From: Pseudanabaena sp. BC1403
GTDB lineage: Bacteria > Cyanobacteriota > Cyanobacteriia > Pseudanabaenales > Pseudanabaenaceae
DNA: 64,000 bases
Direction of reading: 5' to 3'
NCBI RefSeq assembly: GCF_002914585.1
Contig: NZ_PDDM01000014.1
Coordinates: 62,001 to 126,000, forward strand
Position 1 is the first letter of the stretch. Each line of letters opens with the position of its first letter. Below the pieces are notes generated by a model. It was not told the origin of the DNA. It made no database searches and saw nothing but the letters and a program-made list of their open reading frames with translations. Positions 57,195 to 62,085 of the stretch are shown here, one piece after another. Made by a program: the position numbers and the translations under genes.

Positions 57195-58835
57195 CTATAT
57201 TTTCAACGCTTGGCGGATTAACTGTTGTTCATTGTGCTTAGCCTGAAATCTACCGTTTTCTACATCTCGAATCCAACTTTGACTCTTCCCAATTTTCTCC
57301 GCTAAGGTGCGCTGACTAATTTGTAAATCTTTCCGTAACGAAGCAATTTGTTCTCCTGAAAGTAGTGATTGAGGAGAGTTTAGGATTTTTTTGCCAGAAC
57401 TCTTGTTTTTTTGTCTAGATGACTGATTTTGCGATCGCTCAATTTTTCTTCTTTTGCGGGAAAGCTCCGCAGGATGTTCCCAATCAGCGAGTAAATCAAA
57501 GGATAGAATTCGAGCATTGATCAGCATTTGCCACTTGCCACGTGGGCCAATATCGGTGAGCCGTAAGTTGCCACTGCCATCATTGATCCAGAACTCTAGA
57601 GCGGCCTCAGCATCATCAGGGATATCCGCCAGTTTCGACCATAGCGGTTGAATCTCTACAGGATAGCTAACGGGGTCGAATATAGGCTTGAGTCCATAGC
57701 GATTTACAACTTCTAAATCACTCTCAAACATTCTGAGTAAGCGTTTCCTTTCTTCCCTTTGAGTCACGGCTTGATTTACCCGATCTTCGCCATAGGCAAC
57801 CCGCATCAGGGTCAGCACCATAATGCGTTGTTGATCTCCCATGCGGGTTTTAAATAGCAACCAGAGCAACATCCGCGCCGCTCCTTCATGTTGTTGCCAA
57901 ATGCTCATAATTGCCCCTAGCAGAGACTTTGGCAGGGTACTATATTGATAAAAGGATCTTCCTGCATGGCATTCCTTTTTATTCAAGAAATATTGCGACC
58001 AAGCTCCTGCTTTTACTTTAAAAGTTAGCCCAACTAGATGTTTACATCCCTCTTCGTCTTCATGAAAATGATGTACGATTTCTAATAAATGCCAAAGTGG
58101 ACTTTCTGGCAAAGAGAAAGCTCCAACTTTGCCCTGTGTCGGCCAATCAATTTGGGCTGTAATCCAACATGGTTGTATGGCGAGAGTCTTAATCAGATTT
58201 AACTTCGTTGATTTCGTCAAATCTTTGCGCTTATCTAAACCAAGATATTCTTCAATTTGACGATCGCTAATTGTAAATTCTTGCTCCCAAGGTTTTTCTA
58301 AGGTTGTGGCATGGGCTGCATAGATTAAGTGCATACAGGTAGCACGGATATCGAGAGTGTCTGATGCAAGGATCGTTTGAGCTTCAATATGCGATCGCGG
58401 ATAACTAAAATTGATGATATTGTTTAAGCGCAATGCGATTTTGCCTTTGCCCTGACTGACCGCTCGTTCGTATACCAAAGTCCCTTTCTCATCTAAGTCC
58501 CAAGCTAAGGATTGTCGTTGAGCCAGTAAATTACAAGCTTCCCAAATGGCGATTGCTGAAGCGAAGGGAGCGCTGACTCCATTAGCAAACAAACTAGGGC
58601 TAACTGTAAAGGGATTTTCAATGGATTTCACTCTGCCTTTTTTGGGTTGTAGTGGTAGAGAAGCCCCAATGCTGCAAGCACTGACACATAAAGGTTCGGG
58701 CGCATATCCTTCACAGTTATTGCATAAAGCTGGATCGATCCAGTAATTACCTTGCTGAATTGAAATTGCTCCCGTCGGACAAACAGATATACAAGAAGAA
58801 CAGGCAGCACAATCACTGGATATTTTATAAGCCAT
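57195..58835 (-). CDS. cnfR: CnfR (PatB-like), transcriptional activator of nif genes
   Basis: The 546-aa protein has a full bacterial-type 2[4Fe-4S] domain at the N terminus (CAACSSCISVCPTGAI, then CNNCEGYAPEPLCVSAC), a long middle region, and a C-terminal helix-turn-helix (ISQRTLAEKIGKSQSWIRDVENGRF, about residues 505-530). This domain order is that of CnfR/PatB, which in non-heterocystous cyanobacteria activates nif genes under low oxygen; the clusters probably sense O2. A basic linker (RKRRKIERSQNQSSRQKNK) precedes the HTH. It is convergent with modBC; its promoter lies in the 518-bp gap to the right. Confidence 0.96.
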   Translation of the reverse strand: MAYKISSDCAACSSCISVCPTGAISIQQGNYWIDPALCNNCEGYAPEPLCVSACSIGASLPLQPKKGRVKSIENPFTVSPSLFANGVSAPFASAIAIWEACNLLAQRQSLAWDLDEKGTLVYERAVSQGKGKIALRLNNIINFSYPRSHIEAQTILASDTLDIRATCMHLIYAAHATTLEKPWEQEFTISDRQIEEYLGLDKRKDLTKSTKLNLIKTLAIQPCWITAQIDWPTQGKVGAFSLPESPLWHLLEIVHHFHEDEEGCKHLVGLTFKVKAGAWSQYFLNKKECHAGRSFYQYSTLPKSLLGAIMSIWQQHEGAARMLLWLLFKTRMGDQQRIMVLTLMRVAYGEDRVNQAVTQREERKRLLRMFESDLEVVNRYGLKPIFDPVSYPVEIQPLWSKLADIPDDAEAALEFWINDGSGNLRLTDIGPRGKWQMLINARILSFDLLADWEHPAELSRKRRKIERSQNQSSRQKNKSSGKKILNSPQSLLSGEQIASLRKDLQISQRTLAEKIGKSQSWIRDVENGRFQAKHNEQQLIRQALKI

Positions 58836-59353: not shown

Positions 59354-59656
59354 ATGCACGCACTCTCAATTCCAACTTGGATCATTCATATCCTCAGTGT
59401 GACGGAGTGGATTGTGGCAATTTGGTTGGTTTGGATCTATGCCAAGGTCAGTCAAAATCCAGTTTGGCGAGGATTTGCGATCGCCATGTTGCCTGCTCTC
59501 GTCAGCGCTATCTGCGTCTGTACTTGGCATTTTTATGACAACGATCCATCTCTGGCTTGGCTAGGCACTATCCAAGCCACTATGACCTTACTCGGCAACT
59601 GTACTTTGATGGTGGCGGCATGGTTTTTATGGAAACAATCTGTTCAATCTCGCTAA
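59354..59656 (+). CDS. DUF2499 (Ycf49-like) membrane protein
   Basis: The 100-aa protein has three hydrophobic segments and the Ycf49/DUF2499 pattern: LSIPTWIIHILSVTEWIVAIWLVW, then WRGFAIAMLPALVSAICVCTWHFYDN and a C-terminal helix (TLLGNCTLMVAAWFLW). It is a conserved thylakoid-type membrane protein of unknown role in cyanobacteria and plastids. It is paired with the DUF3593 gene. Confidence 0.88.
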   Translation: MHALSIPTWIIHILSVTEWIVAIWLVWIYAKVSQNPVWRGFAIAMLPALVSAICVCTWHFYDNDPSLAWLGTIQATMTLLGNCTLMVAAWFLWKQSVQSR

Positions 59657-59675: not shown

Positions 59676-59969
59676 ATGATTTCTAAAGATACTCTTTTTA
59701 TTCTGTCACTGTTTCCATATTTGGGATTTCTCTGGTTGCTAACGCGATCACAGAAAGCGCCAAAGCTAGCACTGATTGGGTTTTATTGCACCTTGCTATT
59801 TGTTGGCGTGACCATTCCTGCGGGAATCTATACCAAAATCGTCTATGGAACTTCGCTCTCCAATGTCGATTGGTTGCACGGTACTGCCGAGTCCTTCTTA
59901 ACTCTATCAAATACCCTAGTTGTGTTGGGATTTCGTCAAGCGATCTTGCGATCGCCAAAGCTCAATTAA
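59676..59969 (+). CDS. DUF3593 membrane protein
   Basis: The 97-aa protein (LFILSLFPYLGFLWLLTRSQKAPKLALIGFYCTLLFVGVTIPAGIYT, then DWLHGTAESFLTLSNTLVVLGF) matches DUF3593, a conserved membrane family of cyanobacteria and plants that often lies beside DUF2499. The two genes are separated by 19 bp and are probably co-transcribed. The function is unknown. Confidence 0.85.
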   Translation: MISKDTLFILSLFPYLGFLWLLTRSQKAPKLALIGFYCTLLFVGVTIPAGIYTKIVYGTSLSNVDWLHGTAESFLTLSNTLVVLGFRQAILRSPKLN

Positions 59970-59976
59970 TTAAAGT

Positions 59977-60010
59977 GATGAAGTCCTGCGCTTCGCGCAG
60001 GACTTCATCA
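59977..60010. terminator. Perfect hairpin between the DUF3593 and BchE-like genes
   Basis: TGATGAAGTCCTGCGC pairs with GCGCAGGACTTCATCA around TT. It lies 36-69 bp before the BchE-like start and would limit read-through from the DUF genes. Confidence 0.75.
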
Positions 60011-60045: not shown

Positions 60046-62085
60046 ATGCGTATCTTGATGATTCAACCTAACTACCATTCTGGCGGTGCAGAAATTGCAG
60101 GAAATTGGCCGTCCAGTTGGGTTCCCTATGTAGGTGGTGCATTAAAGACCGCAGGTTTTACGGAAATCCGCTTTATCGATGCCATGTGTAACAACATTGG
60201 TGATGTGGAATTGGCAATCGAGATTAAAAAATATCAGCCCGATGTGGTGCTATGTACTGCGATCACGCCGATGATTTATAAATCACAGGCAACTTTAAAG
60301 CTTGTTAAAACTGTTTGTCCAGAAGCGAAAGCAATCATGGGCGGTGTGCATCCTACCTATATGTATCGTGAAGTGTTGAGTGAGGCTCCTTGGGTGGATT
60401 ACATCATTCGGGGTGAAGGGGAAGAAATTACGGTGAATCTGTTGAGGGCGATCGCGAATGTTACGGATATACAAGAGCGCCGCAATATTTTAGGAATTGC
60501 CTTTTTAGAAGATGGCAAAGTTGTCGCTACACCCGCCCATCCACCTATTAAGGATTTGAATACGCTTACTCCTGATTGGAGCTTATTGGATTGGGATAAA
60601 TATATTTACACGCCTCTGAATACTAGAGTTGCAGTTCCCAATTATTCACGGGGCTGTCCATTTCGTTGTCGGTTCTGCTCGCAGTGGAAGTTTTGGCGTA
60701 AATACAGATCGCGATCGCCCAAGCAATTTGTCGATGAAATCGAACGGCTAGTCAAGAATCACAATGTCGGTTTTTTCATTCTTGCTGATGAAGAACCAAC
60801 GATTAACAAATCAAGGTTTGTTGCCCTCTGCAATGAGTTGATCGATCGCAACTTAGGCATTCACTGGGGTATTAATACGCGAGTTACCGACATTCTGCGC
60901 GATGAGAAGGAATTACCGCTTTATCACAAGGCTGGCTTAGTTCATGTATCTCTAGGAACCGAGGCTTCGGCTCAACTGAATCTGAATCTATTCCGTAAAG
61001 AAACCACGATCGCCGATAACAAACGGGCGGTGCAATTGCTTCGTGATAATGGCATTCTTGCGGAAGTGCAGTTCATTATGGGGCTGCCAAACGAAACTCC
61101 TGAAACCATCGAGGAAACCTATCGTATGGCAAGGGATTGGAAAGCGGACATGACCAATTGGAATATGTACACTCCTTGGCCCTTTGCCGAACTCTTCCAA
61201 GATTTGCAAGATAAAGTGGAAATTCGCGACTACTCCCACTACAACTTTGTCACGCCAATTATCAAGCCCGACAATATGAGTCGTGAGGATGTTCTGAAGG
61301 GAGTACTTCGCAACTATGCTAGATTCTATTCTTGGAAGTTCCTCGAATATTGGTTTGAGAAAGATTCCTTCAAACGGCGTTATCTCTTGGGCTGTCTCTG
61401 GGCATTTGTGAAGACGACGCTCAACAAGCGCTTCTATAATCTCGATCGCGTCAAGCAAAAGGGCTTGCATACGGAAATTGATTTTGGCTTCGATGAGGCT
61501 CGCATCTTGACACCCGAACAAATGGCGCTCATTAAAAAAGGACAGGTTGGCTCCGCCGATATTGATTTTGTCGGCACGATTTCCGCCTGTGGTGCGCCCA
61601 ATGATATCGCCCTTGATTCCTATACCAAAGAGCAGGTCGTCAAGAATGATGTGATTCAAGTGGCGGTAGTGGAAGCCGATCAGCAAACGCGGATCGATCT
61701 GCGGGTAAATCTGCGATCGCAAGCGGGTATCGAAGTTGCGAGTGAGGCAACTAATGGCGAAACAGGACTGGTCATTCTCGAATCGATCGATGTGGATGTT
61801 GCCGTTGTCGATGCGGCGCTTCCAGACATGAATCTAGTAAAGTTTCTCCGTTCTGCGCGGAGAGTCCAAGAAAATTCCTACGTGATTCCCTCAAAGATTT
61901 TGATATTAGTGACTCCCGAACAAAGCACGATCCTATGCGAGGCGATCGCTGCGGGTGTAGATGGCTTCTGTCTCAAGGATTCCCCCATTGAAAAACTCGC
62001 AGAAGCAGTACATATCACCCATAAAAAAGGTCGCTATGAAGATCCTGCGATCGCGCCTCTTTTGGAAAATGTTGTTCCTGTTTAA
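60046..62085 (+). CDS. bchE: BchE-type radical SAM Mg-protoporphyrin IX monomethyl ester cyclase with C-terminal receiver domain
   Basis: The 679-aa protein starts MRILMIQPNYHSGGAEIAGNW, the signature opening of BchE, the O2-independent cyclase that forms ring E of (bacterio)chlorophyll. A B12-binding-like domain (1-150; VVLCTAITPMIY, MGGVHPTYMY) precedes the radical SAM cluster GCPFRCRFC (C204, C208, C211) and FFILADEEPTINKSRF. The core ends near residue 500. A receiver-like domain follows (about 537-660): VVEADQQTR, D589 in VVDAALPDM and K644 in CLKD. Its acidic pocket is partly changed (E-A instead of D-D). A normal BchE has no receiver; other radical SAM/B12 paralogues exist in cyanobacteria, so the exact reaction needs confirmation. 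Confidence 0.85.
   Translation: MRILMIQPNYHSGGAEIAGNWPSSWVPYVGGALKTAGFTEIRFIDAMCNNIGDVELAIEIKKYQPDVVLCTAITPMIYKSQATLKLVKTVCPEAKAIMGGVHPTYMYREVLSEAPWVDYIIRGEGEEITVNLLRAIANVTDIQERRNILGIAFLEDGKVVATPAHPPIKDLNTLTPDWSLLDWDKYIYTPLNTRVAVPNYSRGCPFRCRFCSQWKFWRKYRSRSPKQFVDEIERLVKNHNVGFFILADEEPTINKSRFVALCNELIDRNLGIHWGINTRVTDILRDEKELPLYHKAGLVHVSLGTEASAQLNLNLFRKETTIADNKRAVQLLRDNGILAEVQFIMGLPNETPETIEETYRMARDWKADMTNWNMYTPWPFAELFQDLQDKVEIRDYSHYNFVTPIIKPDNMSREDVLKGVLRNYARFYSWKFLEYWFEKDSFKRRYLLGCLWAFVKTTLNKRFYNLDRVKQKGLHTEIDFGFDEARILTPEQMALIKKGQVGSADIDFVGTISACGAPNDIALDSYTKEQVVKNDVIQVAVVEADQQTRIDLRVNLRSQAGIEVASEATNGETGLVILESIDVDVAVVDAALPDMNLVKFLRSARRVQENSYVIPSKILILVTPEQSTILCEAIAAGVDGFCLKDSPIEKLAEAVHITHKKGRYEDPAIAPLLENVVPV

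Follow-up and report, generated by a model that had tools for sequence, protein, structure and literature searches.

A pseudo-receiver domain joined to the anaerobic chlorophyll cyclase BchE in Pseudanabaena and other cyanobacteria

The window analyzed here is a 64,000-nucleotide stretch of the genome of Pseudanabaena sp. BC1403 (contig NZ_PDDM01000014.1, positions 62,001 to 126,000). Near its end lies a gene that joins a BchE/ChlE-type enzyme, the anaerobic cyclase of chlorophyll synthesis, to a C-terminal receiver domain of the response-regulator type. This receiver lacks a complete phosphorylation site and belongs to a single clade of cyanobacterial domains that occur fused to BchE, in tandem with it or detached from it, and a dedicated functional partnership of the two is likely. 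The features of the gene were located as follows.

60046..62085, + strand: bchE/chlE-pseudo-receiver fusion gene, an open reading frame of 679 aa with an ATG start
60046..61527, + strand: BchE core, residues 1-494 (TIGR02026 match to residues 2-494; core trees)
60085..60441, + strand: B12-binding domain, residues 14-132 (Pfam)
60643..61128, + strand: radical S-adenosylmethionine (SAM) domain, Radical_SAM, residues 200-361 (Pfam)
60655..60678, + strand: CX3CX2C 4Fe-4S motif, C204/C208/C211 (BchE alignment)
61528..61653, + strand: tether, residues 495-536, disordered at 501-533 and keeping a SACGAPND segment
61654..62028, + strand: pseudo-receiver domain, residues 537-661 (Pfam, model, Foldseek)
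61672..61677, + strand: E543-A544, an acidic pair whose second residue, the metal ligand, is lost
61714..61785, + strand: residues 557-580, covering the end of helix 1 and all of strand 2 and helix 2, with eight of the nine class-defining positions
61810..61812, + strand: D589, phospho-acceptor position, kept
61909..61911, + strand: V622 in place of the Ser/Thr of the switch (placed by alignment with NarL 1a04 and CheY; counts)
61975..61977, + strand: K644, conserved Lys position, kept

The core of this gene is almost certainly a true BchE/ChlE. It matched the NCBIfam family TIGR02026 with 751.5 bits (cut-off 481.35), and the next-best family, HpnJ, reached 129 bits, far under its own cut-off of 578; a BchE paralogue of other function was ruled out by these scores. 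The three cysteines of the CX3CX2C motif were unchanged in 53 of 53 aligned BchE, and the core tree placed the window protein inside the cyanobacterial BchE clade with support of 100/100 against 12 outgroup BchE. Production of protochlorophyllide without O2 is predicted. Foldseek matched the core to B12-type radical SAM enzymes. The solved cobalamin-dependent enzymes AprD4 (6fd2), TsrM (6wte) and OxsB (5ul4) share its fold but act on other substrates, with 15-18% identity in the Foldseek listing; no structure of BchE was found in the Protein Data Bank. The genome of the window also carries a second BchE-like frame (L002, G000:C20:35139-36179) of 522 aa, with 36% identity to BchE over residues 1-344.

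The C-terminal part was recognized as a receiver by family score and by fold. Response_reg (PF00072) matched residues 539-655 with 39.2 bits (cut-off 30.2), and the AlphaFold2 model, built on an alignment of 53 sequences with a mean predicted local distance difference test (pLDDT) of 80, showed a complete (βα)5 receiver fold at residues 537-661, preceded by disorder at 501-533. Ten-residue blocks between 541 and 670 had a pLDDT of 84-96, save for 74 at 571-580. Foldseek matched the tail to receivers of the DesR/NarL type, with a target template modelling score of 0.89 for DesR (4le2). No C-terminal match of the LuxR-type helix-turn-helix (HTH) was found in the window protein, which is therefore not a NarL/FixJ regulator by domain content. 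Many unfused BchE also have the SACGAPND segment of the tether, close to their C-terminus. The initial annotation had proposed a BchE-like cyclase with intact B12 and radical SAM regions and an extra receiver-like domain, and both proposals were borne out, the first by the TIGR02026 score, the Pfam domains and the invariant cysteines, the second by the Response_reg score and the complete modelled fold. The two outcomes it had named as damaging, a core grouping with paralogues of other function and a tail without receiver fold, did not arise; the paralogues were compared by score and not by tree, the core trees holding BchE rows only.

A receiver lacking any one of five residues (the acidic pair DD, D, T/S and K) is a pseudo-receiver by the definition given in PMC12632262. 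The E-A acidic pair, D589 and K644 were found as annotated, and V622 was additionally located at the Ser/Thr switch position. The annotated phosphoacceptor-type D589 and K644 do not suffice for a functional phospho-receiver, with all five residues present, and this was ruled out: A544 stands where the metal ligand should be, and V622 where the switch needs Ser/Thr. Each of the 36 tabulated BchE-linked domains (fused and tandem, that of the window among them; 37 with the detached form added) was missing one or more of the five residues, and these domains are therefore pseudo-receivers, a classification that is nearly certain on sequence grounds. All five residues were kept in 7/7 nearest free regulators and in 7/7 other free regulators. 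The switch residue was T in 14/14 of these and was gone from 35 of the 36 BchE-linked domains, the sole exception (L022) lacking other phospho-site residues. The phospho-acceptor D was absent from all three tandem forms, and the detached domain, which stands outside the 36, had, by eye, neither the Asp nor the second residue of the acidic pair. The switch position V622 was set by alignment with NarL and CheY and replaces an earlier register at T623, and the absence of any canonical domain hinges on this choice: 0/36 were canonical with V622, compared with 10 of the 26 receiver-only fused rows (the window not among them) were T623 the switch, and 6/21 rows in an earlier table of 21 rows read in the T623 register.

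In cyanobacteria, 33 distinct fused BchE-receiver sequences were identified, seven with a longer HTH-type tail and 26 without, the HTH-tailed class being assigned by length and alignment. The domain was present in three genetic arrangements, namely fused, as a separate gene in tandem, and as a detached gene. The tandem receiver gene started 14 nt (L195) or 129 nt (L186) past the bchE stop; in another tandem form (L194) the receiver lay in frame beyond a TAA, with an ambiguous exact start. The detached form (L206, genome G286) was a 128-aa gene with an open frame, about 1.9 Mb from an unfused bchE. Because the fusion recurs in other genomes it is no assembly accident, and an assembly or frame artefact was ruled out by its presence in many genomes, including two Pseudanabaena with copies 98% identical to that of the window; a third Pseudanabaena copy was 92% identical. 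Two frame-shifted sequences from metagenome assemblies (L012, L019) were left out, L044-L046 were kept and read from residue 7, and five repeats (L156, L161, L164, L168, L169) and 14 identical rows were dropped, giving 110 distinct BchE.

Frequencies were obtained from a phylum sample of 386 cyanobacterial genomes spread evenly and an order sample of 388 genomes of one order, which overlap, so that their counts are not additive. BchE (E ≤ 1e-100) was found in 17 of the 386 genomes of the phylum sample: four carried the fusion (including the window), one had the receiver as the next gene downstream (G368), one was detached (G286), and 11 had no domain. The order sample contained 48 genomes with BchE, divided into five fusions with HTH-length tails, 15 receiver-only fusions, three tandem forms and 25 without the domain, which was thus present in 23 of 48. 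The tandem genomes were G419, G557 and G512, of which G512 has the same coordinates as G368. With a cut of E ≤ 1e-28, the domain occurred in 6/386 genomes of the phylum sample, all within the 17 with bchE, and in none of the 369 others. No domain without bchE was found in either sample at this cut, which could miss an eroded free copy (the eroded fused domain of G389 fell below it and was counted as fused by its gene), except in G672 of the order sample, where bchE survives as a remnant without residues 129-504 and the domain after it contains a stop codon (L244, 964-1917). The cut sits in a gap of the match lists, from 1.1e-30 to 1.6e-26 in the phylum sample and from 5.5e-29 to 1.7e-27 in the order sample. 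The gene downstream of this decaying bchE-receiver is presumably of the desaturase type, and the same gene follows bchE in several relatives. When 84 unfused loci, including duplicates and loci with short flanks, were searched by tblastn with three receiver queries, the only matches were at the two tandem loci among them. Free copies of the domain as a general feature of unfused genomes were rejected: 11 of 12 such genomes gave matches, and of the 14 loci read there 13 were ordinary regulators without the hallmark and one was the detached domain of G286.

No earlier report of a BchE-receiver fusion was found in searches of open-access papers. The window protein shares with the cyanobacterial ChlE of Yamanashi et al. 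2015, as cited in PMC9003380 and PMC7242693, its whole catalytic core, the domains for B12 binding and radical SAM chemistry and the CX3CX2C motif; many relatives also have a low-oxygen tetrapyrrole gene setting. Cyanobacterial BchE/ChlE is discussed without mention of a receiver in the relevant passages of PMC9003380, PMC5061849, PMC7242693 and PMC6776005, and the window protein differs from the ChlE described there in having, or pairing with, a dedicated pseudo-receiver. Among 37 cyanobacteria, BchE is given for only Cyanothece PCC 7822 and PCC 7425 in PMC4500134.

The receiver tree united the BchE-linked domains in one clade with support of 100/100, with 36 rows and again with 37 including the detached domain. 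This clade sat among a family of ~240-aa NarL-type regulators present in the same genomes, with 100/99 for the joint clade; the nearest regulators (L003, L113, L118, L121, L123, L124, L125) were grouped by eye and then by tree, and the matches L115, L117 and L120 were unused. Receiver fold and joint clade are thus shared with NarL/FixJ regulators, as is an HTH-type tail in the seven fused forms, while the BchE-linked domains differ from them in a broken phospho-site, a decayed or absent HTH, conserved positions of their own and attachment to an enzyme. GerE (cut-off 23.5) scored 36.1 and 27.1 on two HTH-tailed relatives and failed on a third with 19.6, and the receiver score of the HTH-tailed L021 was 30.1, just below the PF00072 cut-off. 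Basic residues of the recognition helix numbered four in the nine free regulators shown and one to three in the seven HTH-tailed and three tandem forms.

Two core trees were computed, from 75 of 95 and 70 of 110 BchE, hand-thinned in the outgroups and, in the second, also in unfused Nostocales. In the second tree the fused proteins fell in one clade (100/99), which includes the unfused BchE of G286 (L092). The first, a quick tree, agreed on this placement, and a single fused clade without L092 was not rejected (approximately unbiased (AU) test, p 0.39). The detached receiver of G286 and the position of its BchE in the fused clade make fission after fusion the natural reading for that genome. 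Later fusion of a tandem bchE-regulator pair is plausible.

Nine class-defining positions were recognized, namely Q538, R557, Q559, S566, T569, E572, T573, V576 and S580. Each was conserved at 0.95-1.00 in the 37 BchE-linked domains, with the same residue at ≤0.15 in 20 free regulators, and all lie within residues 538-580, roughly the N-terminal third, on β1-α1-β2-α2. Mean column conservation in the N-terminal half was 0.79 in BchE-linked domains and 0.74 in free regulators, compared with 0.62 and 0.72 in the C-terminal half. Selection was estimated as the ratio of non-synonymous to synonymous substitution rates (dN/dS). Among the 22 closest pairs listed, eight distinct pairs with a receiver dS of 0.18-1.4 gave a dN/dS of 0.09-0.19 for the receiver and 0.035-0.065 for the core. 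Six pairs with a receiver dS >1.6 gave 0.07-0.28, two further pairs gave no value, and the pair L011-L089 (receiver dS 0.02) gave 0.76, a value of little weight.

These observations are best explained, with somewhat better than even confidence on our part, by a module that is dedicated to the cyclase and serves its interactions or its control independently of phosphorylation. The domain would descend from a NarL-type response regulator near the ~240-aa cyanobacterial family. Once paired with BchE, it would have lost the phospho-switch and relaxed in its C-terminal half, and the DNA-binding part would have decayed and then vanished in the window's lineage. The β1-α1-β2-α2 surface would have stayed fixed; we infer that it is an interface, which may bind either the cyclase itself or a partner that all these cyanobacteria share and, once bound, could set cyclase activity, stability or electron supply without phosphorylation. 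The anaerobic chlorophyll cyclase would thereby gain a candidate dedicated partner in cyanobacteria, hitherto undescribed, and pseudo-receivers an example that is linked to a biosynthetic enzyme and occurs in three genetic forms, of which the detached one opens a direct test in trans. Activity of the isolated anaerobic cyclase is presented as a first report in a 2026 preprint (PMC13142503), and the switching of pseudo-receivers is called a mystery in PMC12632262. The pseudo-receivers treated there share with the 36 tabulated domains, that of the window among them, the loss of defining residues; the BchE-linked domain differs from them in its tie to a biosynthetic radical SAM enzyme.

Several results weigh against a dedicated phosphate-free module. 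D589 is kept in 31 of the 33 fused domains, which would be unneeded in a purely phosphate-free domain. The domain is absent from the 11 and 25 bchE genomes of the two samples counted above as lacking it, and none of 35 non-cyanobacterial BchE loci (515-596 aa; from the best 80 loci) carried a receiver; catalysis therefore does not need it, since about half or more of the cyanobacterial BchE lack it. The nine positions carry no probability because they were picked by scanning related sequences, and the block 571-580, with four of the nine, has the lowest pLDDT of the domain. The domains of L022, L023 and L024 are strongly eroded. The core and receiver trees conflict over the tandem lineage, which is basal by core (96/88 for the branch separating it from Nostocales and the fused proteins) and nested within the fused clade by receiver (97/85); a single fused receiver clade was not rejected (AU p 0.54).

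A well-folded C-terminal domain might instead serve as a passenger that keeps an insoluble enzyme soluble or stable, its sequence mattering little. The disordered tether of the model fits such a role, but it would not require the fused, tandem and detached forms to preserve identical positions or the domain to survive as a free 128-aa protein, and the domain is constrained in the eight usable close pairs, though less than the core; we regard this as unlikely. Equally unlikely is an enzyme-regulator pair in which the phosphate-free regulator directly reads the state of the cyclase, an oxygen-labile enzyme (its cluster, B12 or bound tetrapyrrole), and the HTH-tailed forms pass it to DNA. If true, the union of a chlorophyll enzyme with a response regulator would have produced a sensor.

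Phosphorylation of D589 by a histidine kinase or a small phosphodonor could still switch the enzyme, as might be read from the widely retained Asp, from the 19 of 33 fused domains that keep the acidic pair, D and K together, and from the free relatives with all five residues. The replacement of a direct metal ligand by A544 and of the Ser/Thr by V622 in the window, the loss of the switch in nearly all linked domains and the loss of D in the tandem and detached forms make this improbable. Distinctly improbable is a transcription regulator tethered to the enzyme, whose HTH-tailed forms would bind DNA and signal to low-oxygen genes the state of the cyclase, an oxygen-labile enzyme, the receiver-only form of the window being a reduced descendant. 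Seven fused proteins do retain a tail where the HTH would stand, with GerE passing in two of three tested, one such fusion lies within a 6.09-Mb contig (G724), and bchE often stands beside other low-oxygen tetrapyrrole genes; the basic residues of the recognition helix are reduced from four to one to three, however, and 26 of the 33 fused forms, including the window, have no HTH tail. A neutral relic of gene fusion under loss, compatible with the lost HTH tail, the relaxed C-terminal half, the lost active-site residues and the erosion of L022-L024, is very improbable given a dN/dS well under 1 in the eight usable close pairs, nine near-fixed positions and the open frame of the detached copy.

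Upstream of the fusion gene, three neighbours were considered.

57195..58835, - strand: CnfR-type nif activator with N-terminal 4Fe-4S and C-terminal HTH, third gene upstream of bchE
59354..59656, + strand: DUF2499 gene upstream of bchE (context)
59676..59969, + strand: DUF3593 gene upstream of bchE (context)

PMC8510180 describes CnfR as a protein with a pair of 4Fe-4S sites at the N-terminus and an HTH of the XRE type at the C-terminus. The product of 57195-58835 has this make-up by a narrow margin (Fer4 21.9, cut-off 21.1; HTH_3 23.8, cut-off 23), its second 4Fe-4S site resting on cysteines seen by eye because the two-cluster models stayed under their cut-offs. The annotated proximity of cnfR was thus confirmed, with the two small DUF2499 and DUF3593 genes separating it from bchE. 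In Pseudanabaena, bchE was found in 4/26 genomes and a CnfR match in 10/26, two of them partial. All four bchE genomes had cnfR, 1.2 to 4.5 kb from bchE in three and on a separate contig in the fourth. In Pseudanabaena ABRG5-3 a 98.2% match of the fusion gene lies on the 125.5-kb plasmid ABRG53d with nif genes.

At the clustering threshold applied, none of 45 other cyanobacterial bchE loci had the neighbours seen in the window, several of these loci being short, and a general nif island was ruled out accordingly. A heme oxygenase-type gene was found at 24/45 of these loci, hemN at 21/45 and an AcsF-type cyclase gene at 11/45. The names AcsF and HemN come from NCBIfam matches at one such locus (L016); the heme oxygenase had no match there and is so named for its sequence and for the cluster known in print. 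In the genome of the window, the genes of the heme oxygenase, HemN and AcsF types are grouped on contig C3, without bchE. The adjacency to nif and cnfR is particular to Pseudanabaena, and bchE elsewhere often stands with heme oxygenase and hemN. Of the low-oxygen adaptation island proposed initially, the link of bchE to low-oxygen life is plausible from these neighbours, and the nif/cnfR setting did not prove general. In PCC 7425, BchE lies directly downstream of chlAII-ho2-hemN according to PMC4500134.

At an Acaryochloris locus (L048, 3062-5323), two heme oxygenase-type genes with one gene between them lie upstream of an HTH-tailed BchE gene, with no hemN within the 9.5 kb examined. On ABRG53d a psbA gene (L146, NZ_AP017564.1, 63922-65004) lies between cnfR and bchE and might encode a special nitrogen-fixation D1. 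A second DUF3593 copy, 65% like the common copy in the window genome, stands beside DUF2499 in exactly the four of 26 Pseudanabaena genomes with bchE. Between DUF3593 and bchE, a perfect 15-bp hairpin is present at 59976-60010; a like hairpin with a compensatory stem change occurs at the same place in L192, and a different, shorter palindrome in L191.
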